This document shows positions 2,372-22,128 of a DNA stretch of 22,359 nucleotides, in pieces. The DNA lies in contig JAHEGL010000004.1 in the NCBI GenBank assembly GCA_024645145.1, positions 1 through 22,359 of the forward strand, read 5' to 3'. The stretch's first letter is position 1, and the number at the start of each line of letters is the position of its first letter. The DNA comes from Planktotalea sp. GTDB lineage: Bacteria; Pseudomonadota; Alphaproteobacteria; Rhodobacterales; Rhodobacteraceae. The notes under the pieces are model-generated. The model searched no databases and was not told the DNA's origin. It was given only the letters and a program-made list of their open reading frames with translations. The position numbers were made by a program, and so were the translations under genes.

Positions 2372-2445
2372 ACAACGCCCCCCAAAAAATCGTAGTCATT
2401 CTCAAAAAACCGCAGTTGACCTTGTCATCAACCACGCCCTTACGC

Positions 2446-2459
2446 TCAGCAATTGCTGA
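2446..2459. repeat. Perfect 14-base palindrome TCAGCAATTGCTGA
   Basis: The sequence equals its own reverse complement over all 14 bases, and two further pairs form after one mismatch. It lies about 75 bases upstream of the ppaA start. A dimeric regulator could bind it as an operator. The binding protein is unknown to me. Confidence 0.4.
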
Positions 2460-2507
2460 ACGCTTGGATATACTAGGGATAAGCGACGGCCTTTTGGTGC
2501 AAGCACT

Positions 2508-2528
2508 CTTGTTCAATCAAGAAACAAG
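2508..2528. promoter_or_regulatory. Inverted repeat CTTGTT-N9-AACAAG, PpsR-box-like but with N11
   Basis: Two perfect 6-base arms are separated by nine bases. Read as half-sites this is TGT-N11-ACA, one base shorter than the established PpsR/CrtJ consensus TGT-N12-ACA. It lies about 137 bases upstream of ppaA. The resemblance may be chance. Confidence 0.25.
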
Positions 2529-2603
2529 CGCGCTAAAGAGCCATAAAATCTGTGCTGAAGGTCCCAATTTCATCAACACATCTTTCCGACTTTCCGGGGC
2601 TTG

Positions 2604-2622
2604 TTTGCATGGCTAGTGCAAA
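2604..2622. promoter_or_regulatory. Inverted repeat TTTGCA-N7-TGCAAA
   Basis: Two perfect 6-base arms with a 7-base spacer lie in the gene-free spacer downstream of the response-regulator gene. The shape suits a dimeric repressor site, but no target gene is obvious, since the nearest gene ends here rather than starts. Confidence 0.2.
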
Positions 2623-2743
2623 ACAGATGCTTCCGGTCAGCAGAACTTGGAGTGGGACTCAACTATCCCGCTAAACTACAGAGTACGTTGCACGAAACAT
2701 ACTCAAGTACTTCGGATATACCAGTGCGTATAAATACTCTAAA

Positions 2744-3349
2744 TCAACCAACCATACGAATAAGGTCAGCGATGCCCCGCGCGTTCATCTTTTCACGAAT
2801 GCGGGAGCGATGCCCCTCAACCGTGCGCTGGCTCACATCAAGCTCACTCGCAATTTCTTTGTTCAACTTGCCTTGCAAAAGGTGCTGCAAAACTTCGCGC
2901 TCTCGATCAGTGAGTTTAGCCAAACGATCTGCAACAATCTTCTTGGACACCGTCGCAGGCTGCTTTTTGAACAACATCTCTGTCGCTGTCGTCACAGCGC
3001 ACATGAGACGTTCTTCGGACATCGGCTTTTCAATAAAATCCAATGCACCTGCGCGCAGCGCCGCAACGGCATCTGACACGCTCGCGTTTGCAGCAGTTAC
3101 GATAACCGGCAAACGCATCCCATTCTCAACCATATAGCTTTGCAGCTCTGCACCACTCATTTTAGGAAGCGATAGATCAAGCACCATAAGAGCACTTTGT
3201 TTTGGCTCGTATTGCGCCAAGAAATCTTCGGCACTTGCGAACGGCAAACACGTGAATCCTTTATCAGCAAACAGGGCACAGTATCGCGCGCGCGCCACCT
3301 CGTTCCGCTCAACTAGGTAAACCGAAAGGGTGTCTGTCTGTTCGTTCAT
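2744..3349 (-). CDS. FixJ/NarL-type response regulator with unusual acidic pocket
   Basis: A 201-residue two-component transcription factor: receiver domain about 8-125, then a LuxR-type helix-turn-helix about 146-199 (LTDREREVLQHLLQGKLNKE and the VSQRTVEGHR recognition helix). The phospho-acceptor is Asp58 (VLDLSLP), with Thr85 and Lys108 (EKP) conserved. The usual Asp pair after strand 1 is instead Glu14-Arg15 (YLVERNE), so Mg2+ binding and phosphorylation may be altered. The open frame extends upstream to 3523, but the start at 3349 has an ideal GGAGG six bases before the ATG and gives the normal FixJ length. It is divergent from the ten-gene catabolic operon and is the best candidate for its regulator. 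No sensor kinase is in the window. Confidence 0.88.
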   Translation of the reverse strand: MNEQTDTLSVYLVERNEVARARYCALFADKGFTCLPFASAEDFLAQYEPKQSALMVLDLSLPKMSGAELQSYMVENGMRLPVIVTAANASVSDAVAALRAGALDFIEKPMSEERLMCAVTTATEMLFKKQPATVSKKIVADRLAKLTDREREVLQHLLQGKLNKEIASELDVSQRTVEGHRSRIREKMNARGIADLIRMVG

Positions 3350-3549
3350 CGGTCGCCTCCGTGACCTGTTTACAACTTGAGAGGTAGAACGCGCAGCGCC
3401 CGCTTCAACTGATGGCGTAAATAAATTTGGCTCAATAAGTCGCAGCCCATGCCGCCGTGCTCGAAACCATAATCCAAAATTTTGCCCTTTCTCAGGCTCC
3501 ACTCTCATCGTATAAAAATGCATCTCGTTTTCTCAGGGAGGGGTAAAGC
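3350..3549. promoter_or_regulatory. Divergent promoter region between the response regulator and the catabolic operon
   Basis: This 200-base region must hold the promoters for the leftward regulator gene and the rightward ten-gene operon. I see no clear -35/-10 pair and no strong operator-like palindrome. A good Shine-Dalgarno (GGGAGGGG) precedes the GTG start at 3550. The open frame running leftward through this region is an upstream extension of the regulator frame and not a separate gene. Confidence 0.5.
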
Positions 3550-5706
3550 GTGGCCGAACGTTCTTTCGCGAAAGAAGTCCAGCATCTAAAGATCGGTGCC
3601 GGTGAAACCTTTCGCGGTGAAGGCATATTGGCCATCACCAAGGCCCTCTTGGAAAACGGCGTGGGCTATGTCGCTGGCTATCAGGGCTCACCGATTTCAC
3701 ACCTGATGGATGTTTTAGCCGACGCGCAGGACATCCTTTCAGATATGGGCGTACACTTTGAAGCCAGCGCATCAGAGGCAACCGCAGCTGCCACTTTAGC
3801 CGCTTCTGTCCATTATCCCATCCGCGGTGCTGTTACGTTCAAATCGACGGTCGGCACCAATGTTGCCTCTGACGCCTTGGCCAATCTGTCCTCTGGTGGT
3901 GTGACAGGTGGCGCGTTGGTAATCGTCGGCGAAGATTACGGCGAAGGCTCGTCCATCATGCAAGAGCGCAGCCATGCGTTTGCGATGAAAAGTCAAATCT
4001 GGCTGCTGGATCCGCGTCCTAACTTGCCCTCCATGGTCAAAGCCGTTGGTGATGGGTTCGCGCTATCGGAGGCTTCAAACAGTCCCGTTATGCTACAACT
4101 CAGGATCAAGTCCTGCCATCTGCTTGGTGAGTTTGAAGCCAGGGACAACCTGCACCCGTCCACAACTGTCAAAGACGCTTTGGAAAACCCCAAACGCGAC
4201 GTGGAAAGGATTGTTCTGCCACCGGCCTCATATCTGCACGAGCAGGAAAAAGTTACCAAACGCCTGCCAGCCGCGATTGAGTATATCAGTTCCAATAAGC
4301 TGAATGAAAACTTTGGCCCGACAAGTGGCAAGGTTGGAATCATCTGTCAGGGCGGCCATTACAATGGCGTTATCCGTGCGCTGCAACGCCTTGGCCTCGC
4401 CAATATGTATGGCGATTGCGAAGTCCCGCTGTACGTTCTGAACGTCACTTATCCGCTAGTGGGTGATGAAATTCTAAACTTCGCAAAGAACAAAGACAGC
4501 CTGTTTGTCATTGAAGAAGGTCACCCCGCCTATCTCGAGCAAAACATACGCTCAATCCTGCACAAAGCCGGTGCACGATGCGCTGTTGAGGGCAAAGGGC
4601 CGCTTCCTGAAGCGGGGGAGCTTACTGGGCAAATCCTTCTTGATGGGCTTTCAAGTTATTTCAGTGAGACCGCTCCAGAGCTGATGCCAGACGTAGCGCG
4701 CGCGCCAAATGCGCCGCCTCAGCTCAAGATGCCAGAGCTGGCAGACACCGTCCCCGCAAGGCCCCCAAGCTTTTGCATAGGCTGCCCAGAACGTCCCATC
4801 TTCGCCGCCACCAAACTTATTGAGGAAGAACTTGGACCCCATCACATCGCAAGCGATATCGGGTGTCACCTGTTCTCGATCAACGCGCCGTTTGATCTTG
4901 GTGCAACCACAATGGGCTATGGCCTTGGCCCCGCATCTGCATCTGCATTCAACGACAAATTGGCCAATCGCCGATCTATATCCTTCCTTGGCGATGGCGG
5001 ATTCTGGCACAACGGATTGACCTCTTCGATTGGTAACGCTGTTTTCAATGACAACGATGGCGTCATCATTATTGTCGACAACTATTATTCCGCAGCAACT
5101 GGCGGGCAGGATATCCTGTCCTCGCGCGCAAATAACGTCTCAAAGTCCACCCAACACCCCATCAAAGAAGCCGTTGAAGGCATGGGTGTAAAATGGGTAC
5201 GCCAGTTGGATCGCACCTATGATGTGGGAAAGACGCAAGCGACTTTGAAAGAAGCGCTAGAAACCCCTGAAACTGGGCCGAAGGTCATCATTGCCTCCTC
5301 TGAATGCATGCTCAACAAGCAGCGCCGCGAAAAACCTATGGTGAAAAAAGCCGTCGCAGAGGGCAAACGTATGACCCGCACGCGCTTTGGTGTGGATGGG
5401 GATGTGTGCACAGGGGATCATGCGTGTATTCGTCTTTCGGGCTGTCCGTCTTTGTCACTCAAAACGCTGGATGATCCGCTGCGCGATGATCCTGTCGCAA
5501 GCATTGATCAAAACTGCGTCGGGTGCGGCAACTGTGGCGCGGTGGCGGATGCTGCGGTACTTTGCCCGTCGTTTTATCAAGCAGATCTGATCCAGAACCC
5601 TTCAAAACTGGACCGAACCCTAAGCGATTGGCGCACAAAGCTGATCAGCAAACTCCAAAAACGCCGTGATGCGCGGCGTCTGGTCTTCTCGAAAGACACT
5701 GTATGA
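3550..5706 (+). CDS. iorA: 2-oxoacid:ferredoxin oxidoreductase alpha subunit, indolepyruvate (IorA) type
   Basis: A 718-residue TPP-dependent subunit that decarboxylates a 2-oxo acid to an acyl-CoA and reduces ferredoxin. An N-terminal pyrimidine-binding domain (about 15-190, GYQGSP 43-48) is followed by a middle domain, the CIGCPERP block (Cys409, Cys412), and the TPP/Mg site with GDGG at 481-484 and Asn511. At the C-terminus is a ferredoxin domain with Cys620/626/632 and Cys656/659/662/672; its spacing departs from the textbook CxxCxxCxxxCP but matches what I know of proteobacterial IorA. The start is GTG with GGAGG eight bases upstream. It overlaps iorB by ATGA. Annotated family members are called indolepyruvate-specific. 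In this operon an arylglyoxylate such as isatinate is an alternative substrate (inference). Confidence 0.92.
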   Translation: MAERSFAKEVQHLKIGAGETFRGEGILAITKALLENGVGYVAGYQGSPISHLMDVLADAQDILSDMGVHFEASASEATAAATLAASVHYPIRGAVTFKSTVGTNVASDALANLSSGGVTGGALVIVGEDYGEGSSIMQERSHAFAMKSQIWLLDPRPNLPSMVKAVGDGFALSEASNSPVMLQLRIKSCHLLGEFEARDNLHPSTTVKDALENPKRDVERIVLPPASYLHEQEKVTKRLPAAIEYISSNKLNENFGPTSGKVGIICQGGHYNGVIRALQRLGLANMYGDCEVPLYVLNVTYPLVGDEILNFAKNKDSLFVIEEGHPAYLEQNIRSILHKAGARCAVEGKGPLPEAGELTGQILLDGLSSYFSETAPELMPDVARAPNAPPQLKMPELADTVPARPPSFCIGCPERPIFAATKLIEEELGPHHIASDIGCHLFSINAPFDLGATTMGYGLGPASASAFNDKLANRRSISFLGDGGFWHNGLTSSIGNAVFNDNDGVIIIVDNYYSAATGGQDILSSRANNVSKSTQHPIKEAVEGMGVKWVRQLDRTYDVGKTQATLKEALETPETGPKVIIASSECMLNKQRREKPMVKKAVAEGKRMTRTRFGVDGDVCTGDHACIRLSGCPSLSLKTLDDPLRDDPVASIDQNCVGCGNCGAVADAAVLCPSFYQADLIQNPSKLDRTLSDWRTKLISKLQKRRDARRLVFSKDTV

Positions 5707-7163
5707 GCGACATCATAAAACTTGCTGTGCTTGCTGTTGGCGGGCAGGGCGGGGGTGTCCTTACCAACTGGATCGCGGATCTTGCCACGCGCTGCGATTA
5801 TGCGGTGCAAATGACCTCTGTTGCCGGCGTTGCGCAACGCACGGGAGCGACAATTTATTATGTCGAAATGGCCCCCAAGACCGACCGCCAACCCGTTTTC
5901 GCCCTGAGCCCATCCCCCGGTGATCTCGACATTCTGATCGCTGCGGAATTGATGGAAGCAGGCCGTGCAGTCCTACGTGGATTCGTAACGCCTGATTGCA
6001 CCACATTGATCGCCTCAACCCACCGTATCCTTGCCACTTCAGAGAAAATGGTGCCTGGCGATGGCCGCGCAGAGGATGCCTTGGTCGAAAGTGAAATCAC
6101 CAAAGCAGCGCTCCGCTCCGTTTGTTTTGATATGGAAGCGCTTGCGACGGACGCAGGCAGCATGATTTCCGCCAGCCTTTTTGGCGGCCTTGCGCGCAGC
6201 GGTGCCCTACCGTTTGAGACGGCGCAATTTGAAGCGGTCATAGAAGCCTCTGGTCGTGGTGTTGCGCAAAGCCTGTCCGCCTTTCGCGCCGCATTGAACT
6301 ATACGCCAGATGATCAGCCCATTGTTCAAACAAGCGAAGAACGTGTGGAAGGCCCAAAAAAGCTGCAAGACAGCTGGCAGGCGCTTTTGAAGCAAGTCGA
6401 GAGCTTCCCCAGTAACGCGAAAGACATGATCAAAGCAGGGCTGCAAAAAACCGTCGATTATCAGGATATCGCTTATGGCGAGACCTACCTCACTCATTTG
6501 CAAAGTTTCGATGCCGAACTTGTCCCAACCGCGGCAAAGTACATCGCAAACGCTATGTGCTATGACGACATTTTGCGCGTCGCAGACCTCAAAACCCGCG
6601 CGTCACGCCAAGATCGCCTGCGTGCGGAACAAGACATCCCAGACGGTGAAATCGTTCACGTCACAGAATATTTCCACCCGCGTGCGCAGGAAATCTGTGG
6701 AACACTGCCAGCAGGTATCGGTGCTTGGATTGAAGCCCGCCCCAAAGTGTTCAACGGTTTGGATAGCATCGCAAACAAAGGTCGTCGGATTAGAACAGAT
6801 GGCATCTTGGGGTTTGGCCTGCTTTGGCTGGTCAGCGCGCTGAAACCTTATCGCCGAAAACTTCTGCGCCACCGCTACGAGAATGCGCATCTGGACCGAC
6901 TGCTTGAAACCACGCAACGCTACAGCGCAAAAGATCCAAAACTTGCCATCGAAATCCTATCCTGCCAACGCCTCATAAAAGGCTACTCTGACACGCATAT
7001 TCGCGGACAATCCAAGTTCGACAAAGTTCTTTCGTCACTCGACGCATTAGAGCGTCGCGACGATGCAGCCGACTGGATCAAGCGCTTGCGCAATGCAGCG
7101 CTAAAAGATGAAAAAGGCGACGCTCTTGATGGCGCACTCGCAACCGTGCGCTCTTTCACATGA
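5703..7163 (+). CDS. iorB: 2-oxoacid:ferredoxin oxidoreductase beta/gamma subunit with C-terminal DUF6537-like region
   Basis: A 486-residue partner of the preceding TPP subunit. The first 200 residues form the pyruvate/ketoisovalerate oxidoreductase catalytic domain: GGQGGGV near residue 13, SVAGVAQRTG about 39-48, then the SPSPGDLDILIAAELMEAGR stretch. Residues from about 215 to the end form the helical extension that I associate with DUF6537 in proteobacterial IorB proteins (YFHPRAQEICGTLP, then RLIKGYSDTH). Archaeal IorB proteins are only about 200 residues, so this is the long proteobacterial form. In many proteobacteria both subunits are one fused chain; here they are two genes joined by an ATGA overlap. 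Its stop overlaps the ligase start in the same way, which suggests translational coupling. Confidence 0.9.
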   Translation: MSDIIKLAVLAVGGQGGGVLTNWIADLATRCDYAVQMTSVAGVAQRTGATIYYVEMAPKTDRQPVFALSPSPGDLDILIAAELMEAGRAVLRGFVTPDCTTLIASTHRILATSEKMVPGDGRAEDALVESEITKAALRSVCFDMEALATDAGSMISASLFGGLARSGALPFETAQFEAVIEASGRGVAQSLSAFRAALNYTPDDQPIVQTSEERVEGPKKLQDSWQALLKQVESFPSNAKDMIKAGLQKTVDYQDIAYGETYLTHLQSFDAELVPTAAKYIANAMCYDDILRVADLKTRASRQDRLRAEQDIPDGEIVHVTEYFHPRAQEICGTLPAGIGAWIEARPKVFNGLDSIANKGRRIRTDGILGFGLLWLVSALKPYRRKLLRHRYENAHLDRLLETTQRYSAKDPKLAIEILSCQRLIKGYSDTHIRGQSKFDKVLSSLDALERRDDAADWIKRLRNAALKDEKGDALDGALATVRSFT

Positions 7164-8758
7164 GCACAGTCTATGACCTTTTCGCCGAAACGGCCAAACG
7201 AACACCAGAGCGTCCAGTTCTGAATATCTTGCCGCGTGTCGCAAAGATTTATGACATTCCAAGCGGTGAAATCACTTACCGTGAAGCGCTTGTTGAAATT
7301 GATGAAATGGCCGCCGCATTTCAAGCCGCTGGATACAAAACAGGCATGCGCGTTGCGCTTTTGCTCGAGAACCGCCCTTCGTTTTTCATCATCTGGCTAG
7401 CACTGAATAAACTCGGGCTTTCTGTCGTGCCAATCAATCCAGACCTCCGCTTGAGTGAGCTGGAATACCTCATTGACCACGCAGAGCCGGCCCTTATCGT
7501 GGCGCTCCCTTCTCGTCACATAGAGCTAAAAAATGCGGCGAGCAGCGCCAATATTGCGCTCAGCGTCATTGCGCCAAACGACGCTATTCCCAGCCCGCGT
7601 ACAAACGCGAACGTTGCGCGCGATCAAAGCGGGCAAGCGCGTGAAGCCGCGATACTTTATACCTCCGGCACAACGGGAAATCCAAAGGGATGTGTGCTTG
7701 CCAATACCTATTTTTTGCTCGCAGGGCAGTGGTACGCAAACCTTGGCGGTATCGGCACGCTGAGCGAAAATGGCGAACGGATGATCACCCCACTGCCGAT
7801 TTTTCACATGAACGCCATGGCCTATTCCTTCATGGCAATGATCACTGTTGGCGGATGTCTTACAGTTTTGGACCGGTTCCACCCCAGCACCTGGTGGCAA
7901 GATGTGAGCGCCTCAAAAGCGACGTGTTTGCACTATCTAGGTGTCATGCCAACAATGCTCATGGGGTTTGAGCCATCCTCACAAGATCGCGCGCACAGTG
8001 TTCGCTTTGGCTTTGGCGCAGGTGTTGATCCGAACCTGCAAGCGGACTTCGAAGAGCGTTTTGGCTTTCCCTTAATCGAAGCTTGGGCAATGACCGAAAC
8101 AGGGGCAGGCGCAGTTATTGCGTCCGCCACCACAGACCGTTTGATTGGCAAATCCAGCATAGGAAAACCCGAAGCGGCCGTAGAGTGCAAAATCCTCGAC
8201 AACACAGGAAAGGTCGCGCAACAAGGCGAACTTTTGGTACGCCGCAAAGGCGATGATACACGCTACGGCTTCTTTTCCGAATACTACAAAGACGCACAAG
8301 CAACCGAAGACGCATGGCAAGGTGGCTGGTTTCACACAGGCGACATTGTCCGCGTCGACGCAGACGGCAACTACTTCTTCGTAGACCGCAAAAAGAACGT
8401 CATCCGTCGCTCTGGCGAAAACATCGCAGCGGTCGAAGTCGAATCCGTCTTGATGCGCCATCCAGAAATACGCGCCGCAGGGGTCGCCCCTGTGCCCGAC
8501 GCAATACGCGGTGACGAAGTCTTCGCATGTCTGAAGGTCGCCTATCCAACGCCAGAGCTCGCTGATGACATCACACGCTGGTGTCTGGGTCAAATGGCCT
8601 ACTACAAAGCACCGGGCTACATTGCCTTTGTCGACGAACTGCCATTAACCTCTACTCAGAAAATTCAACGAGCGGTGCTGAAAGCCCAGGCGGAAGAGTT
8701 AATGAGCAACCCGAAAACCATCAAAACAGCACATTTAAAAAAGCGGCAGACACGCTGA
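7160..8758 (+). CDS. AMP-forming acyl/aryl-CoA ligase
   Basis: A 532-residue ANL-superfamily enzyme that activates a carboxylic acid to its CoA thioester through an acyl-adenylate. The ATP phosphate-binding loop is LYTSGTTGNPKG (about 167-177). The adenine/Mg segment is WAMTETGAG (309-317), TGD is at 393-395, the hinge region is VDRKKNVIRRSGENI, and the catalytic Lys501 is in TSTQKIQR. The RRSGENI form recalls CaiC-type and related ligases, but the substrate cannot be read from sequence. In context, an indole- or oxindole-acetate or another aryl side-chain acid is likely. It overlaps iorB by ATGA and meets the thiolase gene by TGATG. Confidence 0.9.
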   Translation: MSTVYDLFAETAKRTPERPVLNILPRVAKIYDIPSGEITYREALVEIDEMAAAFQAAGYKTGMRVALLLENRPSFFIIWLALNKLGLSVVPINPDLRLSELEYLIDHAEPALIVALPSRHIELKNAASSANIALSVIAPNDAIPSPRTNANVARDQSGQAREAAILYTSGTTGNPKGCVLANTYFLLAGQWYANLGGIGTLSENGERMITPLPIFHMNAMAYSFMAMITVGGCLTVLDRFHPSTWWQDVSASKATCLHYLGVMPTMLMGFEPSSQDRAHSVRFGFGAGVDPNLQADFEERFGFPLIEAWAMTETGAGAVIASATTDRLIGKSSIGKPEAAVECKILDNTGKVAQQGELLVRRKGDDTRYGFFSEYYKDAQATEDAWQGGWFHTGDIVRVDADGNYFFVDRKKNVIRRSGENIAAVEVESVLMRHPEIRAAGVAPVPDAIRGDEVFACLKVAYPTPELADDITRWCLGQMAYYKAPGYIAFVDELPLTSTQKIQRAVLKAQAEELMSNPKTIKTAHLKKRQTR

Positions 8759-9936
8759 TGGTCAAAGCGCGACAAAACTACGACGGCGTTGCAATCACCG
8801 CGCCTTTTTCGATGCCCTATCAGCGTTATTCGATTGATACGGCACATTGGTGGATCGCCAAAGCCTTGCGCGGTTCATTGACTGCTGCAAACTTAAAACC
8901 CAGCGATCTTGATGGCTTTTCTGTCGCCAGTTTCACTCTGTTTCCTGACTCTGCCGTTGGACTTACACAGCATTTGGGCCTTTGCCCGCGCTGGCTCGAT
9001 CACATCCCAATGGGCGGGGCAAGCGCCTCTGTGGCGTTGCGCCGCGCCGCGCGTGCGGTTCAAGCGGGGGATGCAAATATAGTGGCTTGTGTTGCAGGTG
9101 ATACCAACCACATCGACAGTTTTCGCAACATGCTGTCGAGCTTTTCACGGTTCGCGCAGGACGCGTCTTACCCCTATGGATACGGTGGTCCGAACGCGAA
9201 TTTCGCATTGCTGACAGATCGCTACATGAAAGAATACGGCGCAACCCGCGAAGACTTTGGCCACATTTGCGTCGCGCAACGCGACAACGCTTTACGCTAT
9301 CAGAATGCAGTTATGAAAAAACCGCTCACGCTTGAGCAATACATGAGCGCGCGTCCAATCGCTGACCCCATCGCGCTCTTTGATTGCGTCATGCCGTGCG
9401 CGGGATCAGAGTGCTTTCTTGTCATGTCCGAGGACGAAGCCGCGAAACGCAATTTGCCCTACGCAATGCTAGGCGGCGCGATAGAGCGTCACAATGCCCA
9501 TAGCGAAGACGACATCCAGCTCCGTGGCGGTTGGACGATGGACATCGATGAGCTCTACGCCATGTCAAATTGCACGCCCGATGACATCGACCTGCTCCAA
9601 ACCTACGATGATTACCCCGTGATTTCGATGATGCAGATCGAAGATCTCGGCTTTTGCGCCAAAGGCGAGGGGCCCGAATTTGTCCGCAGTCATGACCTCA
9701 CAATCGATGGCGATTTTCCCCATAACACCTCAGGCGGACAACTTTCTGCAGGACAGGCGGGCGCTGCGGGCGGCTACATCGGCATGGTCGAAGCGATCCG
9801 CCAAGTAACCGGAACCGCAGGTGGCACTCAGGTCAAAAATGCAAGCATCGCAATGATCTCTGGCTTTGGCATGATCAATTATGATCGTGGCGTATGCACA
9901 AGTGCCTCAATCCTAAAAACGGGGGCGCGCGCATGA
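8758..9936 (+). CDS. Thiolase-superfamily protein (SCP2/Ltp2-like), candidate acyl-CoA aldolase
   Basis: A 392-residue thiolase-fold protein. The open frame extends upstream into the ligase gene, but the ATG at 8758 overlaps the ligase stop (TGATG) and gives a normal length. No cysteine occurs between residues 77 and 110, the segment where classical thiolases carry the acyl-accepting Cys; that loop reads MGGASASVA (85-93). Later blocks fit the SCP2-thiolase/lipid-transfer group: YPYGYGGPNA (138-147), QTYDDYPV with Tyr283 and Tyr286, and the NTSGGQLSAG block (323-332). Steroid-degrading Ltp2 is of this kind: it lacks the Cys, needs a DUF35 partner and catalyses retro-aldol cleavage of a beta-hydroxyacyl-CoA. 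The next gene encodes a DUF35 protein, so the same chemistry is plausible here. A conventional thiolase role is less likely. Confidence 0.85.
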   Translation: MVKARQNYDGVAITAPFSMPYQRYSIDTAHWWIAKALRGSLTAANLKPSDLDGFSVASFTLFPDSAVGLTQHLGLCPRWLDHIPMGGASASVALRRAARAVQAGDANIVACVAGDTNHIDSFRNMLSSFSRFAQDASYPYGYGGPNANFALLTDRYMKEYGATREDFGHICVAQRDNALRYQNAVMKKPLTLEQYMSARPIADPIALFDCVMPCAGSECFLVMSEDEAAKRNLPYAMLGGAIERHNAHSEDDIQLRGGWTMDIDELYAMSNCTPDDIDLLQTYDDYPVISMMQIEDLGFCAKGEGPEFVRSHDLTIDGDFPHNTSGGQLSAGQAGAAGGYIGMVEAIRQVTGTAGGTQVKNASIAMISGFGMINYDRGVCTSASILKTGARA

Positions 9937-11189
9937 CAGAGCCCCTTACGTTCCCACCAAAGAAAGACCCGCAGAAACGCTCTGCCACACCAACGCGCCC
10001 ACCTGAAGCACGCTCTCGCGCGTCTTTGGCCCTAACTGCCGCAGCCGCAGAAGGACGTTTTGCGTTACAAGTTTGCGATGAATGCCAAATTGTTCAATAT
10101 CCCCCACGGGATGCATGTATGAACTGCATTGGAACGGATTTGCGCTGGAATGATGTTTCCCCAAAAGGTCACTTGCTGGCAGAAACAACGGTTCAAACCT
10201 CTACAAAATTGTTCTTTCGCGAACGCGCGCCTTGGCGCATGGGGTCTGTAAAATTGGACGTTGGTCCCTTGATTTTATGCCATATCCATGGGGATTGCAC
10301 GCGCGACAGTGCCGTAAAGGTGTTGAACCGACTGGATAAATCAGGGCAGGCTGTTCTCATCGCCATCCCCCTCGAAAGGAGCGATCATATGGATGATGAT
10401 CCGCAATTGCGCGCGCTCTCTGCTCATCCCAAACACCGTCGTATCCTGATAACGGACGCATGGAACCCGAATACGCCCGCTCTTGCGCGCGCGCTTCTCG
10501 ATGCGGGTGCTGCGACTGTATTTGTTGGTGAGGCCGAAAGTTGGCGGCCCCATCCAAATCGCGATGCCCTTGCCAGCATGGCCAATGTTGAGGTGCTTCC
10601 GCTCGATGTTACAGACACAAGCTCTGTACAAAAGCTCGCGGGCGAGATTGGTGGCAAAACAGATATTCTGATAAACAACGCTCGTTTTTTGCGGCCCGGC
10701 GGCGTGCTGTCGCGCGGCGATACAGGCTTCGCGCGCGACGAAATGGAGGTTAACTATCTCGGCCTTATGCGGCTCGCGCAAGCCTTTGGTCCCGGCATGT
10801 GCGCGCGCACGGCTGATGGCGTCAATTCTGCCGCTGCTTGGGTCAACATTCTTTCCGCCTATGCGCTGTCCAACACACCAGAGTATGGCTGTTACTCTGC
10901 ATCAAACGCTGCTACATATTCGCTTAGTCAATCCTTGCGCGGTGAGTTTAGAAGCTCTGGCTTGCGCGTGATGAACGTTTTTGTCGGCCCGACAGAAGAC
11001 GATTGGCACGCACCACTTCCACCGCCCAAAGTGCTTCCGCAAAGTGTGGCGCGCTCTGTTTTGGATGGCCTCAATGATGGGCTGGAAGACGTGTGGTGCG
11101 GTGATATCGCCAAAGACATTCGCGATCGCTGGCGCAAAAACGCAAAAGTCTTGGAACGCGAAATGACATTCGGGAGCGACGGCGCATGA
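9933..11189 (+). CDS. DUF35 Zn-ribbon/OB-fold protein fused to a degenerate SDR domain
   Basis: A 418-residue fusion. Residues about 28-150 form a DUF35 acyl-CoA-associated module: a rubredoxin-like Zn ribbon with Cys48, Cys51, Cys62 and Cys65, then an OB fold ending in VLIAIPLE. Residues about 168-410 have the short-chain dehydrogenase fold (DILINNA at 244-250, YSASNAA at 321-327). The SDR part looks catalytically impaired: the TGxxxGIG cofactor loop is replaced by TDAWNPNTP (174-182), and the YxxxK lysine is Asn325. DUF35 proteins partner Cys-less or other thiolases (BbsA, ChsH2), which fits the gene just upstream. The ATG at 9933 overlaps the thiolase stop (ATGA); a start at 9894 would overlap more. 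The SDR half may be structural or may bind a ligand without redox chemistry. Confidence 0.88.
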   Translation: MTEPLTFPPKKDPQKRSATPTRPPEARSRASLALTAAAAEGRFALQVCDECQIVQYPPRDACMNCIGTDLRWNDVSPKGHLLAETTVQTSTKLFFRERAPWRMGSVKLDVGPLILCHIHGDCTRDSAVKVLNRLDKSGQAVLIAIPLERSDHMDDDPQLRALSAHPKHRRILITDAWNPNTPALARALLDAGAATVFVGEAESWRPHPNRDALASMANVEVLPLDVTDTSSVQKLAGEIGGKTDILINNARFLRPGGVLSRGDTGFARDEMEVNYLGLMRLAQAFGPGMCARTADGVNSAAAWVNILSAYALSNTPEYGCYSASNAATYSLSQSLRGEFRSSGLRVMNVFVGPTEDDWHAPLPPPKVLPQSVARSVLDGLNDGLEDVWCGDIAKDIRDRWRKNAKVLEREMTFGSDGA

Positions 11190-11959
11190 GCACACTTCAC
11201 TCTCTGGCCACGGATATTGCGTTGGGAAATGTTAAGATCATCGATCTGACGCACACCCTTGATCCAGATTTTCCAGTGATCATTCTACCACCAGAATTCG
11301 GCCAATGCGCGCGTTTCCGCATGGAAGAAATCAGTGCCTATGATCACCGCGGGCCTGCATGGAAGTGGCATAATCTCACGCTTTCCGAACACACGGGCAC
11401 ACATTTTGATGCTCCATCCCATTGGATTTCTGGGCGTGATGTTCCAAATGGCTCCGTCGATGAAATTCCGCTCGACGCTTTTGTCGGTCCGGTTGTCGTC
11501 ATCGACTGCTCTGAGGGCGCTGCACAGAATGACGATCTTGAGCTCACTGTCGAAGCCATAGAAAATTGGGAAGCCGAACACGGTAAAATCCCCACAGGCA
11601 CATGGGTATTGATGCGTACAGATTGGTCAAAACGCTCTGGTGCCGCGTATTTGAACATGCGCAAAGACGGTCCACATTCGCCCGGCCCAAACCCCGAAGC
11701 GATCCAATTCTTGATTAATGAGCGCAACATCCGTGGCTTTGGAACAGAAACCGTGGGCACAGATGCAGGGCAGGGTGCGCATTATGTACCGCCCTATCCG
11801 GCCCATTATTTTTTGCATGGCGCTGGCAAATATGGCCTGCAATGTCTTGCTAATCTCGACCAACTTCCGCCAACTGGCGCTATCCTGCTCGCGGCTCCTT
11901 TGAAAATCAAAAACGGCACAGGTAGTCCGCTGCGCGTGCTCGCAATGATAGAAGGCTAG
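11186..11959 (+). CDS. Cyclase-family metal-dependent hydrolase, probable isatin hydrolase
   Basis: A 257-residue protein of the cyclase/kynurenine formamidase superfamily. The metal and catalytic motif HxxxHxDxxxH is intact: His69, His73, Asp75 and His79 in EHTGTHFDAPSHW. Further conserved blocks are LMRTDWSKR, GPHSPGP, GTDAGQ, the YPAHYFLH region and a C-terminal GAILLAAPLKI. From memory, the whole layout, including the last two blocks, closely resembles the Mn-dependent isatin hydrolase of Labrenzia, which opens isatin to isatinate. I could not run an alignment. Kynurenine formamidase or another cyclic amide/lactone hydrolase is the alternative. It starts inside the previous stop (ATGA) and is followed by an 8-base gap. 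Confidence 0.82.
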   Translation: MSTLHSLATDIALGNVKIIDLTHTLDPDFPVIILPPEFGQCARFRMEEISAYDHRGPAWKWHNLTLSEHTGTHFDAPSHWISGRDVPNGSVDEIPLDAFVGPVVVIDCSEGAAQNDDLELTVEAIENWEAEHGKIPTGTWVLMRTDWSKRSGAAYLNMRKDGPHSPGPNPEAIQFLINERNIRGFGTETVGTDAGQGAHYVPPYPAHYFLHGAGKYGLQCLANLDQLPPTGAILLAAPLKIKNGTGSPLRVLAMIEG

Positions 11960-11967
11960 ATTGAGAC

Positions 11968-12909
11968 ATGGGTGAATTCAAAAGCAGCGTGACAGATATA
12001 AAAGAGTTAACGCCGCGCATCTCACAGATCACTCTTACGTCCGCAGACGGCACCACATTGCCTGTTTGGCAAGCAGGCGCACATATAGAGTGCGACGTCC
12101 CAGATGGCACGCGCGCCTATTCCCTGATCACTAGAGAAGACCCGCAAACCTACGTCATCGCTGTCCAACGCGAAAACGAAGGGCAGGGCGGATCGGCCTA
12201 TATGCATTCGCTTCAAAAGGGCAGCGAGATAAGTTTTTGCGCCCCCAAGAATGATTTCCCAATGGATCCGATTGCCCCTGCTGTATTGCTGGCAGGTGGT
12301 ATCGGTGTAACGCCATTGGTCTCGATGGCCAAAGAACTGAGGGCGCAAAATCGTCCCGTTTCGATGATCTACGCTGGTCGTTCAGAACCGGAAATGGCTT
12401 ATACCGAAACGCTTCAAACGACATTGGGTGCTCAGCTTCGTTTGCACTTTGATGATCAACACGGGCGTCTTGATATTAATGAAGTTGTTAATGCCCTTGG
12501 TCCAGAAGCACATCTTTACGTATGCGGCCCGCGCCCAATGCTCGATGCGACACGCGAAGCCACTGCAACCGCAGGGATAAGTCAGGATCGCGTTCATTTC
12601 GAAGTCTTCGAAGCCGCAAGCACCCGAACTGGCGACACTCCGTTTGAGGTACAAATCAATGACGGTTCAGTCTTTACCATTCCCGTTGGCAAAACCATCA
12701 TCGACGTGCTTGAAGAAAACGACATCGACGTCATGTACGACTGCCAACGCGGCGATTGCGGGATCTGCCAGTGCGACGTTCTTGAGGGCAAGCCCGATCA
12801 CCGCGACGTTGTTCTCTCCGACGCAGAGCGCGCGGCAGGGGACGTCATGCAGATTTGCGTCAGCCGCGCAAAGTCCGCAAGATTGGTTCTGGACATAGAA
12901 GGAGCGTAA
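11968..12909 (+). CDS. Oxygenase reductase, phthalate dioxygenase reductase type (FMN, NAD(H), C-terminal [2Fe-2S])
   Basis: A 313-residue flavin/iron-sulfur reductase that passes electrons from NAD(P)H to the Rieske oxygenase encoded next. Domain order is flavin domain (RAYSLITRE, about 49-57), nucleotide domain (GGIGVTP near 110; CGPRPMLDA near 189) and a C-terminal plant-type ferredoxin domain with the CQRGDCGIC cluster plus a fourth Cys near residue 298 (MQICVSR). This order is the hallmark of class IA (PDR/VanB) reductases, so no separate ferredoxin gene is needed and none is found. The stop is one base from the alpha-subunit start. Confidence 0.93.
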   Translation: MGEFKSSVTDIKELTPRISQITLTSADGTTLPVWQAGAHIECDVPDGTRAYSLITREDPQTYVIAVQRENEGQGGSAYMHSLQKGSEISFCAPKNDFPMDPIAPAVLLAGGIGVTPLVSMAKELRAQNRPVSMIYAGRSEPEMAYTETLQTTLGAQLRLHFDDQHGRLDINEVVNALGPEAHLYVCGPRPMLDATREATATAGISQDRVHFEVFEAASTRTGDTPFEVQINDGSVFTIPVGKTIIDVLEENDIDVMYDCQRGDCGICQCDVLEGKPDHRDVVLSDAERAAGDVMQICVSRAKSARLVLDIEGA

Positions 12910-12910
12910 A

Positions 12911-14251
12911 ATGGGCTTTCATGTAGGTAATCCAAAAACTGCCGTTGATCTTGTGCAGGCGCATCAAGTGCACCGCGATGTCTATATCTCACCCGAGGTC
13001 TACGCGCTTGAAATGAAACATGTGTTTGCCAATGCTTGGGTGTTTGTAGGCCACGAAAGCCAGACCCCGAACAAGGGCGATTACCTCGCAACACAGATCG
13101 GCAATCAGCCCGTCATTCAAGTGCGTCACAAGGCCGACGATATTCATGTCTTGCTCAATCGTTGCCCGCACAAAGGCACCAAAATTGTCATTGACCGCCA
13201 AGGCAACACAGGCAAGTTTTTTCGCTGCCCGTATCATGCATGGTCGTTCAAAACAGACGGATGTTTGCTCGCGATTCCTTTGAAAAAGGGGTACGAGGGA
13301 ACGGGGCTAGAAAAGACGCCAAACGGTAAAGGGATGAAAGCCGTCGGCGCTGTTAAGAACTATCGCGGCTTCATTTTCGCCCGTCTCGCAGAAGAAGGGA
13401 TCAGCTTTGAGGAGTTCTTTGGCGACAGCCTCAGCTCCCTGGATAATATGGTTGATCGCTCGCCCGAGGGTCGCTTGGAAGTCGTCGGGCCGCCGTTGCG
13501 CTACATGCATCACTGCAACTGGAAAATGCTGGTCGAAAACCAGACGGACACCTGTCACCCCATGGTCGCGCACGAAAGTAGCGCAGGCACAGCCGTTAAG
13601 CTTTATGAAGAAATGGATTTGCCAGAGGGCGCACCAAAGCCAGCCGCGATGCAGATTATCGCCCCTTTCATGAGCCCCTATGAATTCTTTGAAGGCATGG
13701 GCATTCGCACTTGGCCAAACGGGCACGGTCATACAGGTGTGCATCATTCGATTCACTCCGATTACTCTGCGATCCCTGGTTACTTTGACGCGATGGTCGA
13801 AACCTATGGCGAAGAAAAGGCCAAAGCGATCCTCGACGAGAACCGCCACAACACCGTCTACTTCCCCAACATCATGATCAAAGGACCAATCCAACAGCTA
13901 CGCACGTTCATCCCTCTCGCAGCCGACAAAACGATTGTTGAAAGCTACATTTACCGCCTCGTTGGAGCCCCCGATGAGCTGACCGCGCGCACCGCGATGT
14001 ACAACCGTATGATTAACGCGCCAACCTCGATCGTTGGGCATGACGATTTGGAAATGTATGAACGCGCGCAAGAAGGGCTGCATGTGAATGGCCTCGAATG
14101 GGTGAACATTTCACGCCTTTTGGAAGACGATGAAAACCATGATGAAGAAGCCGTGATGAACGGCACAACAGAACGGCAAATGCGCAATCAGTTCGATGCA
14201 TGGTGCAAATTTATGACGTATGATCTTGATCAACAGGGGCCCAAAGAATGA
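12911..14251 (+). CDS. Rieske aromatic-ring-hydroxylating dioxygenase, alpha subunit
   Basis: A 446-residue catalytic subunit. The Rieske [2Fe-2S] ligands are Cys85-x-His87 and Cys106-x2-His109. The mononuclear iron ligands are His216 and His221 in the helix starting NWKMLVENQTDTCH (203-216), with Asp378 or Asp379 (GHDDLEMYE) as the third. Asp213 is the usual electron bridge. The family's common Tyr before the first His is Cys215 here. This enzyme would add O2 to an aromatic or indole ring. Overall it belongs with benzoate/anthranilate/IacC-like oxygenases, but the exact substrate is not readable. It overlaps the beta gene by ATGA. A paired PDR-type reductase and an SDR are typical neighbours. 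Confidence 0.94.
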   Translation: MGFHVGNPKTAVDLVQAHQVHRDVYISPEVYALEMKHVFANAWVFVGHESQTPNKGDYLATQIGNQPVIQVRHKADDIHVLLNRCPHKGTKIVIDRQGNTGKFFRCPYHAWSFKTDGCLLAIPLKKGYEGTGLEKTPNGKGMKAVGAVKNYRGFIFARLAEEGISFEEFFGDSLSSLDNMVDRSPEGRLEVVGPPLRYMHHCNWKMLVENQTDTCHPMVAHESSAGTAVKLYEEMDLPEGAPKPAAMQIIAPFMSPYEFFEGMGIRTWPNGHGHTGVHHSIHSDYSAIPGYFDAMVETYGEEKAKAILDENRHNTVYFPNIMIKGPIQQLRTFIPLAADKTIVESYIYRLVGAPDELTARTAMYNRMINAPTSIVGHDDLEMYERAQEGLHVNGLEWVNISRLLEDDENHDEEAVMNGTTERQMRNQFDAWCKFMTYDLDQQGPKE

Positions 14252-14721
14252 GCGTCTCCAAAGATCACATTATCGATTTCATCTACGAAGAAGCCCGTAT
14301 GCTGGACGAAGGGCGTTACGATGAGTGGCTCGCCCTTTGGCTTCCTGACGGACATTACTGGATGCCGCTGGATTACAAACAAAGTGATCCAATCAACGAA
14401 ACATCACTGCTTTATGAAGACATGTTCATGCTCAAGCTGCGGGTCGAGCGTCTAAATGGCGCGCGCACCTTTAGTCAAAAACCAAAAAGCCGTTGTCATC
14501 ACGTCATTCAACGTCCTTTCGTGGATGAAATGAATGACACAACATTCGTCACCAACACCTCTATGCATTACGTGGAAACGCGGCTGGATGAACAACAGCT
14601 TCTTGCGCTGACAGCGCGTCACGATCTGACACTGGTGGATGGCACACTTCGCATCGCCATAAAACGCGTCGATATCCTGAATTGCGACGCTGCATTCCGC
14701 AATATCCAGCTGCTGCCATGA
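14248..14721 (+). CDS. Rieske dioxygenase beta subunit
   Basis: A 157-residue small subunit of the NTF2-like fold that forms the alpha3beta3 hexamer with the preceding protein. Recognisable blocks are the N-terminal FIYEEARMLDEGRYDEWLAL helix-strand, the DGHYWMPL strand (about 34-41) and the SRCHHVIQRP segment near 86-95. Length is in the usual 155-190 range at the short end. It starts inside the alpha stop and ends inside the SDR start (ATGA at both ends). Beta subunits are structural and are needed for holoenzyme stability. Confidence 0.92.
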   Translation: MSVSKDHIIDFIYEEARMLDEGRYDEWLALWLPDGHYWMPLDYKQSDPINETSLLYEDMFMLKLRVERLNGARTFSQKPKSRCHHVIQRPFVDEMNDTTFVTNTSMHYVETRLDEQQLLALTARHDLTLVDGTLRIAIKRVDILNCDAAFRNIQLLP

Positions 14722-15443
14722 CACAGTATACCGCGCTCATCACAGGCGGCAGCAAAGGGATCGGCGCAGATCTCGGCCAACGGCTTATCCACAGGGGATA
14801 CACCGTCGTTTCCTTGTCGCGCGGGACACCTGAATGGTCACACGATGCATTGCACCATGTCGAAGTCGATTTGACAGACGCTACAGCAACAGAGCACGCC
14901 GCCAAAGACATCGCCGCGACCCACAACATCACGCATCTGATTCACAATGCGGGCGTCATCCGACCCAATTTGGTGGAAGAGGCAACGACTGAAGACCTCA
15001 CAGCGCTAACCCAAATCCACCTTGGCGCACCCCTGATCCTATTGCAAGCTTGCTTGCCCAATATGAAAGCAAACCAATTTGGCCGCGTCCTGTTCAACGG
15101 CTCGCGTGCCGCTTTGGGCGTGCCAACGCGCACCGTATATTCAGCAACGAAAGCGGGTATCATCGGCATGGCGCGTACGTGGGCATTAGAACTCGCACAA
15201 TATGGAATCACCGTGAACGTCGTCGCGCCCGGACCTGTGCAAACTGATAACTTCTGGGATATCATCCCAAAGGGGAGCGAACGCGAAGCGGAGCTCGCCA
15301 AGCGTATGCCTGTCGGTCGTCTCGGCAATCCGCGCGATATTTCCAACGCGTTCATGTTCTTTTGTGATCCCGAAAATAGCTTTGTGACAGGCCAAACACT
15401 CTATGTATGTGGTGGTGCAAGTGTTGGAACACTCACGCTGTAG
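14718..15443 (+). CDS. SDR-family NAD(P)-dependent dehydrogenase (cis-diol or hydroxy-indoline dehydrogenase)
   Basis: A 241-residue classical SDR with all catalytic elements: TGGSKGIG (9-16), HNAG (75-78), Ser128, Tyr140 and Lys144 in YSATK. The ATG at 14718 overlaps the beta-subunit stop (ATGA) and is preferred over an in-frame start at 14682. Sitting directly after a ring-hydroxylating dioxygenase, it most likely oxidises the hydroxylated product. In an indole pathway that would be the C2 hydroxyl, giving a lactam (inference). It contrasts with the degenerate SDR domain earlier in the same operon. It is the last gene of the operon. Confidence 0.92.
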   Translation: MTQYTALITGGSKGIGADLGQRLIHRGYTVVSLSRGTPEWSHDALHHVEVDLTDATATEHAAKDIAATHNITHLIHNAGVIRPNLVEEATTEDLTALTQIHLGAPLILLQACLPNMKANQFGRVLFNGSRAALGVPTRTVYSATKAGIIGMARTWALELAQYGITVNVVAPGPVQTDNFWDIIPKGSEREAELAKRMPVGRLGNPRDISNAFMFFCDPENSFVTGQTLYVCGGASVGTLTL

Positions 15444-20419: not shown

Positions 20420-20451
20420 CGAATCTGTATTGCTGACCTCGCAAAGATGGT

Positions 20452-20503
20452 GTTTGCTGCGATTCATAAAGTTGCGGTGCCAAAGCATGGTAGAACAGCA
20501 AAC
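20452..20503. repeat. Inverted repeat GTTTGCTG ... CAGCAAAC upstream of dctP
   Basis: Two perfect 8-base arms are separated by 36 bases in the leader of the TRAP operon. They could form a long stem-loop in the mRNA or serve as paired protein sites. I have no further support. Confidence 0.25.
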
Positions 20504-20525
20504 CAAATTTTCTGGGAGGAAAAAA

Positions 20526-21560
20526 ATGAAACGTAGAACACTTATGAAAACCAGCTTGGTTGCCGGCGCGCTCGCGTTCAGCCTTGGTGCGACAGCGGCG
20601 TTTGCCGAAACAGTAACGCTGCGCATGTCCACATGGCTGCCACCCAAGCATCACCATACTGCGACAACCCTGCCTGCATGGATCGCAGCTGTGGAAGAAG
20701 CATCCGGCGGTACGCTTAAGATCAAGATCGACCCAGCGCCAATCGCAAAGCCACCAGGCCAGTACGACGTTGTGCGCGATGGCGCGGCAGATATGTCTTA
20801 TCACGTTGTGGCCTACACACCTGGCCCGTTCGAAATTCTGCGCGGTGCAGAGCTTCCGTTCTTGTCACCAAACGGTGAAATCGGCAGCCAAGCGGCATAT
20901 GACTGGTATGACCGTAACATCGGCTTCGACAAAGAATTCAAAGACGTCAAAATCATCACAATGTTTGTGCATGGTCCCGGCGCGATCCACTCCAAAGAGC
21001 CAATCAAAACGCTTGAAGACCTCGCAGGTGTAAAGCTGCGTGTTGGCGGCGGCGGTGTTCGTATGGGTGAAGCGCTTGGCGCAACGCCAGTAGCTCTGCC
21101 AGCGACACAAGCCTATGAAGCGATCCAAAAGGGTGTTGCAGACGGCGCAATGTTCCCATTCGAATCCATCGGTGGTTTCCGCTTGGGTGAGCTGGTGAAC
21201 TACCACCTCGAAATTCCAGGTGGTCTATACACAACACCATTCGCTGTGATGATGAACCCTGCAAAGTTTGACAGCCTGTCTGATGAGCACAAGAAAGTGC
21301 TGACAGACCTTGGTGGCGTTGCTGGTGCGAAAATCTTCGGCAAAGGCTGGGATGACGCGGACGCAGTAGGCCGTAAACTTGCTGAAGAGCAAGGTGGCGT
21401 ATTCCATAAGCTTGAAGGCGAAGAGCTTCAGCGCTGGAGCGACAAGATTGCATTCATGAACGATGCATGGGTCGAAAAAGCGAACGCAGCTGGCCTTGAT
21501 GGCGCAGCTCTGCTGGAAGACTTCAAAGCGACAGTTGCCAAGTACTCCGGCACTAACTAA
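20526..21560 (+). CDS. dctP: TRAP transporter solute-binding protein (DctP family)
   Basis: A 344-residue periplasmic binding protein of a tripartite ATP-independent transporter, which takes up organic acids using ion gradients. The signal peptide ends at about TAAFA/ET (residue 27). KRRTLMK at the start faintly resembles a Tat motif, but a Sec signal is likelier. The block GVKLRVGGGGVRMGEALGAT contains the Arg that usually grips the substrate carboxylate, followed by ALPATQAYEAIQKGVADGA, a strong DctP signature. The start at 20526 is chosen for the GGGAGGA nine bases upstream; upstream in-frame Met codons lack one. A strong hairpin separates it from dctQ. The substrate is unknown; an aromatic or other carboxylic acid is reasonable. 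Confidence 0.94.
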   Translation: MKRRTLMKTSLVAGALAFSLGATAAFAETVTLRMSTWLPPKHHHTATTLPAWIAAVEEASGGTLKIKIDPAPIAKPPGQYDVVRDGAADMSYHVVAYTPGPFEILRGAELPFLSPNGEIGSQAAYDWYDRNIGFDKEFKDVKIITMFVHGPGAIHSKEPIKTLEDLAGVKLRVGGGGVRMGEALGATPVALPATQAYEAIQKGVADGAMFPFESIGGFRLGELVNYHLEIPGGLYTTPFAVMMNPAKFDSLSDEHKKVLTDLGGVAGAKIFGKGWDDADAVGRKLAEEQGGVFHKLEGEELQRWSDKIAFMNDAWVEKANAAGLDGAALLEDFKATVAKYSGTN

Positions 21561-21576
21561 TCGCTAAAGTGAAAAT

Positions 21577-21610
21577 ATGGCACCAGACCAGCTCTGGTGC
21601 CATTCTTTTT
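21577..21610 (+). terminator. Perfect 11-bp hairpin plus T-run between dctP and dctQ
   Basis: Arms ATGGCACCAGA (21577-21587) and TCTGGTGCCAT (21593-21603) flank a CCAGC loop, followed by TCTTTTT. It is a textbook intrinsic terminator placed inside a TRAP operon. It probably acts as a partial terminator so that the binding protein is made in excess over the membrane subunits. Confidence 0.8.
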
Positions 21611-21624
21611 CGTGAGAGGCCCCC

Positions 21625-22128
21625 TTGGAAAATCTGTTGAAATCCTTGTCCAAAGCATTGGCAGCATTTGCTTGCGTCGTGTTGATTGCAGTGATGCTGA
21701 TCACCTTTGTCGATGTTGTTGGGCGTTATTTCTTTAACGCGCCGATCACCTTTGCGGTGGAAATGATACAATTGGGCATGGGGCTTTTGGTGCTCTTCGG
21801 TCTTGCGATTACAACGCTTGATCGCGGGCATATCGCGGTAGACGTGCTGGACTCCGTTGTACATAAAATCGTGCAGCGCATATTTGCGATGATTGCTGCG
21901 CTCAGCGCGGTGGTGTTCATCACGCTCGTGGCCTGGCGCCTTTGGGACCGTGGCATAAAATTCTATGAAGACGGGCTTGCAACAGACGTTCTGTTCCTTC
22001 CCGTCTGGCCGGTCGTGATCTTGATGGCCTGCGCCGCAAGCGTCGCTGCCTTCATCGCACTTGTGCAATTCTTCACTCCTAGCATTCAGGGCCACACACA
22101 CCCGCTAGCCCCAGATTTGGAAGACTGA
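21625..22128 (+). CDS. dctQ: TRAP transporter small permease (DctQ family)
   Basis: A 167-residue membrane protein with four hydrophobic segments (about 9-35, 45-65, 85-108 and 123-150). The block FVDVVGRYFFNAPITFAVEM is diagnostic of DctQ. The start appears to be TTG at 21625, with AGAGG eight bases upstream; no better in-frame ATG precedes it, and the sequence from LENLLKSL onward is as expected. The stop meets the dctM start as TGATG, so the two are translationally coupled. It forms the membrane complex with DctM. Confidence 0.92.
   Translation: MENLLKSLSKALAAFACVVLIAVMLITFVDVVGRYFFNAPITFAVEMIQLGMGLLVLFGLAITTLDRGHIAVDVLDSVVHKIVQRIFAMIAALSAVVFITLVAWRLWDRGIKFYEDGLATDVLFLPVWPVVILMACAASVAAFIALVQFFTPSIQGHTHPLAPDLED

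Follow-up and report, generated by a model that had tools for sequence, protein, structure and literature searches.

A 22,359-nucleotide stretch of Planktotalea sp. (assembly GCA_024645145.1, contig JAHEGL010000004.1, positions 1 to 22,359; hereafter the window) carries at positions 3550-15443 ten plus-strand open reading frames (ORFs) which, by gene content, are the iad operon of a Planktotalea-like roseobacter, i.e. the gene set for indole-3-acetate (IAA) degradation already published as iadA-J. The gene set is known and stands here in rearranged order; the steps past dioxindole-3-acetate (DOAA) are unsettled in print, and for two steps that are poorly understood, a comparison with related loci suggests a course other than the published one. 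In the pathway proposed here, to which a probability of roughly 0.65 is attached, IadCDE would oxygenate IAA and IadJ would oxidise the hydrated product to DOAA, both as reported for Variovorax, after which IadF would form the coenzyme A (CoA) ester DOAA-CoA, a tertiary beta-hydroxyacyl-CoA. IadG and the DUF35 part of IadH would then split DOAA-CoA by a retro-aldol reaction into isatin and acetyl-CoA, with Tyr283 of IadG serving as the base and Asp285 donating the proton, and the short-chain dehydrogenase/reductase (SDR) part of IadH would, judging by its residues, be no working dehydrogenase. IadI would convert isatin to isatinate, as shown for a close homologue, and IadAB (IorAB) would decarboxylate isatinate oxidatively onto CoA, a step suggested by gene context, to give anthraniloyl-CoA (2-aminobenzoyl-CoA), with dioxindole and free anthranilate arising as leak or side products. 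The more specific proposition, that IadG and IadH together form a DUF35-dependent thiolase-fold retro-aldolase of a third kind (with a Tyr/Asp dyad and a dead-SDR partner) and IadAB an isatinate:acceptor oxidoreductase, so that the aerobic iad pathway leads to 2-aminobenzoyl-CoA with anthranilate and dioxindole as by-products, is put at slightly better than even odds. The ten genes are as follows.

3550..5706, plus strand: iadA (iorA-type), alpha subunit of a thiamine pyrophosphate (TPP)-dependent 2-oxoacid:ferredoxin oxidoreductase, proposed isatinate oxidoreductase; TIGR03336 282.6 bits (below the cut-off of 650.9), TPP_enzyme_C; iotA/iadA in PMC9613470
5703..7163, plus strand: iadB (iorB-type), beta subunit with DUF6537; NF006179 657.8 bits (cut-off 348); iorB/iadB in PMC9613470
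7160..8758, plus strand: iadF, AMP (adenosine monophosphate)-forming CoA ligase, proposed dioxindole-3-acetate:CoA ligase; PF00501/PF13193; adjoins iadG in relatives
8758..9936, plus strand: iadG, thiolase-fold proposed retro-aldolase without the nucleophilic Cys, Y283-D284-D285-Y286
9933..11189, plus strand: iadH, DUF35 (Zn ribbon and OB fold) and a degenerate SDR domain, proposed IadG partner; PF12172, PF01796, PF00106; Zn Cys invariant, SDR motifs lost
11186..11959, plus strand: iadI, predicted isatin hydrolase (isatin to isatinate); 5nnb (Labrenzia isatin hydrolase A) 519 bits, catalytic residues conserved
11968..12909, plus strand: iadC, flavin adenine dinucleotide (FAD)/2Fe-2S reductase of the oxygenase; PF00175, PF00111
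12911..14251, plus strand: iadD, Rieske oxygenase large subunit; Variovorax IadD 9o71 558.8 bits, 7yls 556.2 bits, next match 135.9
14248..14721, plus strand: iadE, Rieske oxygenase small subunit; PF00866 82.4 bits
14718..15443, plus strand: iadJ, intact SDR dehydrogenase, proposed dioxindole-3-acetate maker; SDR family, TGxxxGxG and YxxxK; role taken from PMC12633357

Intergenic gaps, in the order A B F G H I C D E J, are -4, -4, -1, -4, -4, +8, +1, -4 and -4 bases, and because neighbours are only -4 to +8 bases apart the ten genes are read as a single coupled unit, as the initial annotation of the window had it; stop/start overlap was used to refine the starts of iadG (8758-9936), iadH (9933-11189) and iadJ (14718-15443). 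Profile scans (Pfam, NCBIfam) assigned all ten of the families originally named, namely IorA- and IorB-type subunits, AMP-forming CoA ligase, thiolase-like protein, DUF35-SDR protein, cyclase-family hydrolase, flavin/2Fe-2S reductase, Rieske large and small subunits and SDR, with the amendment that the supposed DUF35 fusion consists of DUF35 and an SDR domain.

The original assignment of the operon to a pathway from IAA through isatin was borne out by the suggested comparison with published iad loci, in that all of iadA-J is present, in rearranged order. The window contains both iotA/iadA and iorB/iadB, named as exclusive markers of iad loci (PMC9613470), an IadD matching that of Variovorax with the PF00866 small subunit adjoining, and each of iadC, F, G, H, I and J. 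All ten families, including IadD and the IorAB markers, are common to the window and the iad loci of Variovorax paradoxus CL14, Achromobacter and Bradyrhizobium. Similar gene blocks were found again in named relatives (the best 80 of 342 loci were compared, and many of the stretches end at contig ends), so the gene content is not a matter of chance; the closest named relative in the scan, Planktotalea frisia, has an identical gene order and an IadH 92% identical to that of the window. Variovorax-type loci were represented by relatives in the family of genome G569, in which IadD (E-value up to 1e-130) occurs in 25/299 genomes and which is taken to be beta-proteobacterial because the IadD of one member, the nearest locus, scores 839.4 bits against CL14 IadD. 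In 15/25 of these G569-family stretches all ten genes run iorA iorB C D E F G H I J, whereas the window has A B F G H I C D E J; named alphaproteobacterial loci frequently run C D E F G H I J, in many cases accompanied by a TRAP transporter and a divergently oriented MarR gene. Searches against plasmids matched IadD and IadG to plasmids of Sulfitobacter and Roseibium, but no plasmid spans most of the window. A Pantoea agglomerans plasmid (L135) carries IadCDE-like genes (IadD 55%) followed by an FAD oxidoreductase, an amidase and an aromatic amino acid transporter, and near the iad loci L152, L177-L181, L183, L187, L188, L195-L197 and L201 (L152 and L201 being one genome) there is another IadD paralogue with 46-50% identity to window IadD.

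For residue counts, rows below 80% coverage or 40% identity were dropped from the main alignments, which count the window itself and include duplicates (L003-L011 come from genomes also represented among L012-L091), and rows below 70% coverage or 30% identity were dropped from the G569-family alignments; in paired counts below, the first figure refers to the main rows and the second to the G569-family rows. At the entry to the pathway, window IadD has about four times as many bits to Variovorax IadD as to any other solved oxygenase, and the TGxxxGxG and YxxxK motifs of IadJ are intact in 84/84 and 21/21 rows. Mutants and isotopes described in PMC12633357 identify IadCDE as a monooxygenase acting on IAA and IadJ as the enzyme completing the oxidation to DOAA. 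The initial proposal that a dioxygenase and an SDR together make DOAA is modified in that the Rieske enzyme is reported to be a monooxygenase, the second oxidation being the work of IadJ.

IadG is without both catalytic Cys positions of thiolases, as its first description as a Cys-less thiolase implied, and is neither a canonical nor an SCP2 thiolase by this measure; its best solved relatives include Sal and Ltp2, which are DUF35-dependent acyl-CoA aldolases. The stretch facing the Gly-for-Cys region of CtSal reads G-G-A in 106/106 and 23/23 rows, with a Cys at the following residue in 3/106 rows only. The YDDY motif, likewise kept in 106/106 and 23/23 rows, compares with YDCY in CtSal and YDHF in Ltp2, and the catalytic Tyr of the Sal/Ltp2 YDxY/F motif is matched by the invariant Y283. 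The DUF35 partner (PF12172, PF01796) is supplied by iadH, which overlaps iadG by 4 bases and retains all four zinc Cys of DUF35 in 108/108 and 22/22 rows. With a thiolase fold devoid of the nucleophilic Cys, a Tyr-Asp motif and a DUF35 partner, IadGH resembles the steroid aldolases Sal-Shy(DUF35) and Ltp2-ChsH2(DUF35), but differs from them in the fusion of DUF35 to a degenerate SDR and in an expected substrate that is aromatic rather than steroid. IadG is not filed as Sal or Ltp2, yet may work alike; the retro-aldolase first suggested thus stands in its build (no Cys, Sal/Ltp2 kinship), with isatin release as a proposed step.

In the SDR half of IadH, the first Gly of TGxxxGxG is gone in 130/130 rows and the catalytic Tyr and Lys occur together in 1/130. 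All 50 matches listed in a fold search were SDR chains, indicating that the SDR fold is retained; the DUF35 half is assigned from sequence. Because the cofactor and Tyr-Lys motifs are lost while the control, IadJ, is intact, the SDR domain looks catalytically dead and is probably structural. A working IadH dehydrogenase was rejected on these motif counts, and the loss of the motifs likewise disfavours the published alcohol-dehydrogenase role. The original scheme, which gave every gene one step with none left over, had left this fused domain out of account. An iadH mutant loses anthranilate according to PMC12633357, as would be expected if IadG needs DUF35. A G-H-I module lacking CDE, J and IorAB in the stretch shown occurs on plasmids of Sagittula stellata E-37 and Agrobacterium pusense (L154, L155), beside an Asp/Glu racemase-family gene.

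IadI, first annotated as an isatin-hydrolase-like cyclase, is by sequence an isatin hydrolase. Isatin hydrolase A of Labrenzia aggregata (LaIHA) hydrolyses isatin, and of its eleven metal and pocket residues, as given in PMC6117287, ten are invariant in 95/95 IadI rows and the other, Y204, occurs in 82 of them; the full set of eleven is retained in 20/20 G569-family rows, and the HxGTHxDxPxH metal site and LaIHA active-site residues are present in window IadI. The genome of the isatin hydrolase A strain itself (Labrenzia aggregata, L022) has this cyclase inside an iad block, 83% identical to window IadI. The enzyme of Labrenzia (Roseibium) aggregata IAM 12614 shows no notable difference from IadI in the type of gene or of operon.

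The association of IorAB with this pathway was examined beyond the operon. Across 198 genomes of the window's family, IorAB occurs in 16/16 genomes with IadH and 26/182 without (Fisher p 1.2e-12, a test that takes no account of shared ancestry), at cuts of E <1e-100 for IadH (16 genomes) and E up to 1e-30 for IorB (42 genomes, G139 partial); the IadH cut, and that for the monooxygenase-type gene below, were chosen after viewing the matches, and counts were made by hand. In the G569 family iorAB lies inside the fetched stretch in 21/25 loci; of the remaining four genomes, three hold IorA elsewhere, and the stretch of G650, cut off by a contig end, shows none of G, H and I. A replacement 2-oxoacid decarboxylase was sought in G569-family loci without iorAB, and no TPP enzyme was found among the nine ORFs of L185, L187 and L192 scanned. 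Of 398 genomes of the phylum, 8 have a match to IadG at E up to 1e-80, and the five among them that belong to other alphaproteobacterial families also have IorA. Among 35 IorAB stretches (15 from IadH genomes, the window's own excluded, and 20 of the 26 others, six weaker matches being left out), 21 contain a cyclase 46-53% identical to IadI, comprising 5/15 from IadH genomes and 16/20 from genomes without IadH. One such cyclase (L133), the only one compared with solved structures, matched isatin hydrolase B at 471.3 bits. In a tree of 69 IorA, alphaproteobacterial sequences from iad loci interleave with those from isatin-hydrolase-B-linked loci, i.e. those whose stretch includes a cyclase with 40-55% identity to IadI; the G569 family forms its own clade, with Azospirillum and L113 near. 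Since the shared partner is an isatin-hydrolase-type gene, isatinate is the favoured substrate of IorAB, as initially annotated, and its proposed conversion to anthraniloyl-CoA is likewise favoured by context. A recurring locus (L101, L117, L118, L124, L127), mostly in genomes without IadH, combines iorAB with ABC-transporter-like, isatin-hydrolase-like, FAD-oxidoreductase-like and MarR-like genes, families assigned by eye except for the cyclase and iorAB, and is possibly a separate route through isatin.

The fate of the product was approached through genes accompanying iad loci. The iad run of Azospirillum thermophilum reads iorA iorB C D E F J; next come a gene of the bifunctional salicylyl-CoA 5-hydroxylase/oxidoreductase type and then SDR, enoyl-CoA hydratase, acyl-CoA dehydrogenase, thioesterase and RidA genes, with IadF as the sole annotated AMP ligase of the stretch. 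The same monooxygenase-type gene adjoins iadJ in L036 (NF006101 1272 bits, cut-off 1078) and lies near iad genes in L149, L151, L185, L189, L190 and L198; within the 80 named loci, at a threshold of at least 55% identity, it was found in L036 only, plus partial matches in L054 and L072. Genome-wide it occurs in 12/16 IadH genomes and 53/182 others (p 4e-4), a count of 65 genomes made up of 64 full matches and one in pieces (G142), all of at least 69% identity. The salicylyl-CoA 5-hydroxylase-type family presumably includes 2-aminobenzoyl-CoA monooxygenase/reductase, and the presence of such genes in or near several iad loci resembles the 2-aminobenzoyl-CoA pathway. The known entry to that pathway is through a ligase acting on anthranilate (PMC6221969), whereas in iad loci IorAB would supply the CoA ester directly; 2-aminobenzoyl-CoA has also been described for the anaerobic iaa pathway. 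The gene context is read here as pointing to 2-aminobenzoyl-CoA as the IorAB product.

Several observations weigh against the proposed pathway. No MarR-type IadR gene stands beside iadA, where a LuxR-type response regulator occupies the spot and photosynthesis regulator genes adjoin, in contrast to known iad loci, and a search of the window's own genome returned no convincing IadR orthologue (best MarR matches 25-34%); the missing IadR is a regulatory feature, outside the catabolic core. The second catalytic residue of IadG is Asp285 in every row, against Cys304 in Sal, and Ltp2 Tyr344 aligns with Gly335, such that the motif by itself is no proof of activity. G569-family IadH keeps the SDR Lys in 22/22 rows, with Tyr replaced by Phe in 21. 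In Azospirillum G, H and I lie outside the iad run, with an IadG match in two pieces elsewhere on the plasmid. The monooxygenase-type gene bears the family name salicylyl-CoA 5-hydroxylase and has no match in the window's own genome, a metagenome-assembled genome 83% complete. Agrobacterium pusense (L155) has a TPP enzyme of decarboxylase build near G-H-I and may therefore have a route without IorAB. A further difficulty is presented by Variovorax mutants: as described in PMC12633357, a compound C8H7NO2 accumulates in an iadI mutant and in a construct without iadI, and anthranilate is restored by iadC-K2 without iadAB. The formula C8H7NO2 is that of dioxindole, whereas isatin is the compound to be expected here; together these data depart from the predictions of the simplest retro-aldol form.

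The same mutant metabolomics underlie the published view, in which IadF, IadG (as ketothiolase) and IadH (as alcohol dehydrogenase) take off the side chain by a reductive route, giving C8H7NO2, IadI acts later, subsequent enzymes yield free anthranilate and IadAB is dispensable, the roles of IadF, IadG and IadH having been inferred from annotation (PMC12633357). This is considered unlikely, as IadG has no thiolase nucleophile, the IadH SDR is without the first cofactor-motif Gly (130/130) and the Tyr-Lys pair (129/130), and dioxindole would have to be re-oxidised to isatin when the ten genes leave no unassigned intact dehydrogenase. Under the retro-aldol pathway, C8H7NO2 could be explained by reduction of isatin by other enzymes, and isatin and isatinic acid have been detected in Variovorax cultures (PMC9613470). 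The iadC-K2 set excludes iadAB by the published gene order, in which gene numbers descend from iadC (70) and iadD (69) to iadH-J (65-63) and iadK2 (62) (PMC10374108), and anthranilate in these strains could come by a side route. C8H7NO3 and C7H7NO rise strongly only in iadC-K2 overexpressers of Variovorax (PMC12633357); read from their formulas they fit isatinate and 2-aminobenzaldehyde, a rise expected if IadAB normally removes isatinate.

Two further explanations were weighed. The closest NCBIfam names of IorAB are indolepyruvate oxidoreductases, which would place it upstream, converting indolepyruvate from tryptophan to indoleacetyl-CoA for the remaining operon to continue. However, the TIGR03336 score is far under its cut-off, an isatin-hydrolase-family cyclase accompanies IorAB in 16/20 stretches without IadH, the aryl-CoA monooxygenase-type gene also accompanies IorAB, and a CoA ester made early would leave IadF redundant, making this arrangement very unlikely; indolepyruvate as substrate was judged unlikely on the score and the cyclase neighbours. 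It is equally doubtful that the operon, with its chemistry unchanged, acts on an indole or aryl acid other than IAA: the G-H-I modules beside a racemase-family gene on the Sagittula and Agrobacterium plasmids would suit such a substrate, but the roughly fourfold bit-score excess of IadD towards its Variovorax counterpart and the complete iadA-J set argue for IAA.

The mechanism put forward in the initial annotation for the two unsettled steps, cleavage by IadGH and oxidation by IadAB, is thus supported by residues and context. That annotation had left open whether the route was published; the gene set is in print as iadA-J, and no retro-aldolase or 2-aminobenzoyl-CoA role for iad was found in the literature searched, most subscription journals lying outside the search. 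The words retro, indolepyruvate and anthraniloyl are absent from PMC12633357 in its accessible part.

The window belongs to a 2.78 Mb genome, and its host is probably a marine bacterium. To the left of the operon lie the gene of the LuxR-type response regulator, one with a B12-binding domain and one for a PAS/Fis-type regulator. Plasmid relatives of this last regulator, from Sulfitobacter, Roseobacter, Tateyamaria, Thalassococcus and Roseinatronobacter records, carry the annotation ppsR. The B12-binding-domain gene is taken to be aerR/ppaA-like, and the arrangement of ppsR-like and B12-binding-domain photosynthesis regulators (window 117-2371) left of the iad operon is also found in P. frisia (L012), which shares this flank at 78% over window positions 1-4000. 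To the right are genes for CMD-family and VTT-domain proteins, for an ABC transporter and for a TRAP transporter, as well as an amidohydrolase gene that is split.

20430..22128, plus strand: TRAP transporter DctP and DctQ, possible uptake system; PF03480, PF04290

DctP relatives occur in 44/83 loci searched (best identity 38%), and a link between this transporter and the iad operon is possible. The Amidohydro_2 gene at 19405-20419 is in two frames (ORFs 19405-19812 and 19652-20419), with a PF04909 match in the second part only, beginning at profile position 71, which represents a frameshift or assembly error.

Variovorax strips auxin from root zones by means of iad, and the pathway is being engineered into other root bacteria (PMC12633357). 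If IadGH is a retro-aldolase and IadAB the maker of 2-aminobenzoyl-CoA, the iadC-K2 cassette in use would lack the isatinate-clearing enzyme, and the iad pathway would end in another product than the published one. The recurrence of the same operon in roseobacters, some of them algal isolates, also gives the operon a bearing on auxin traffic between algae and bacteria.

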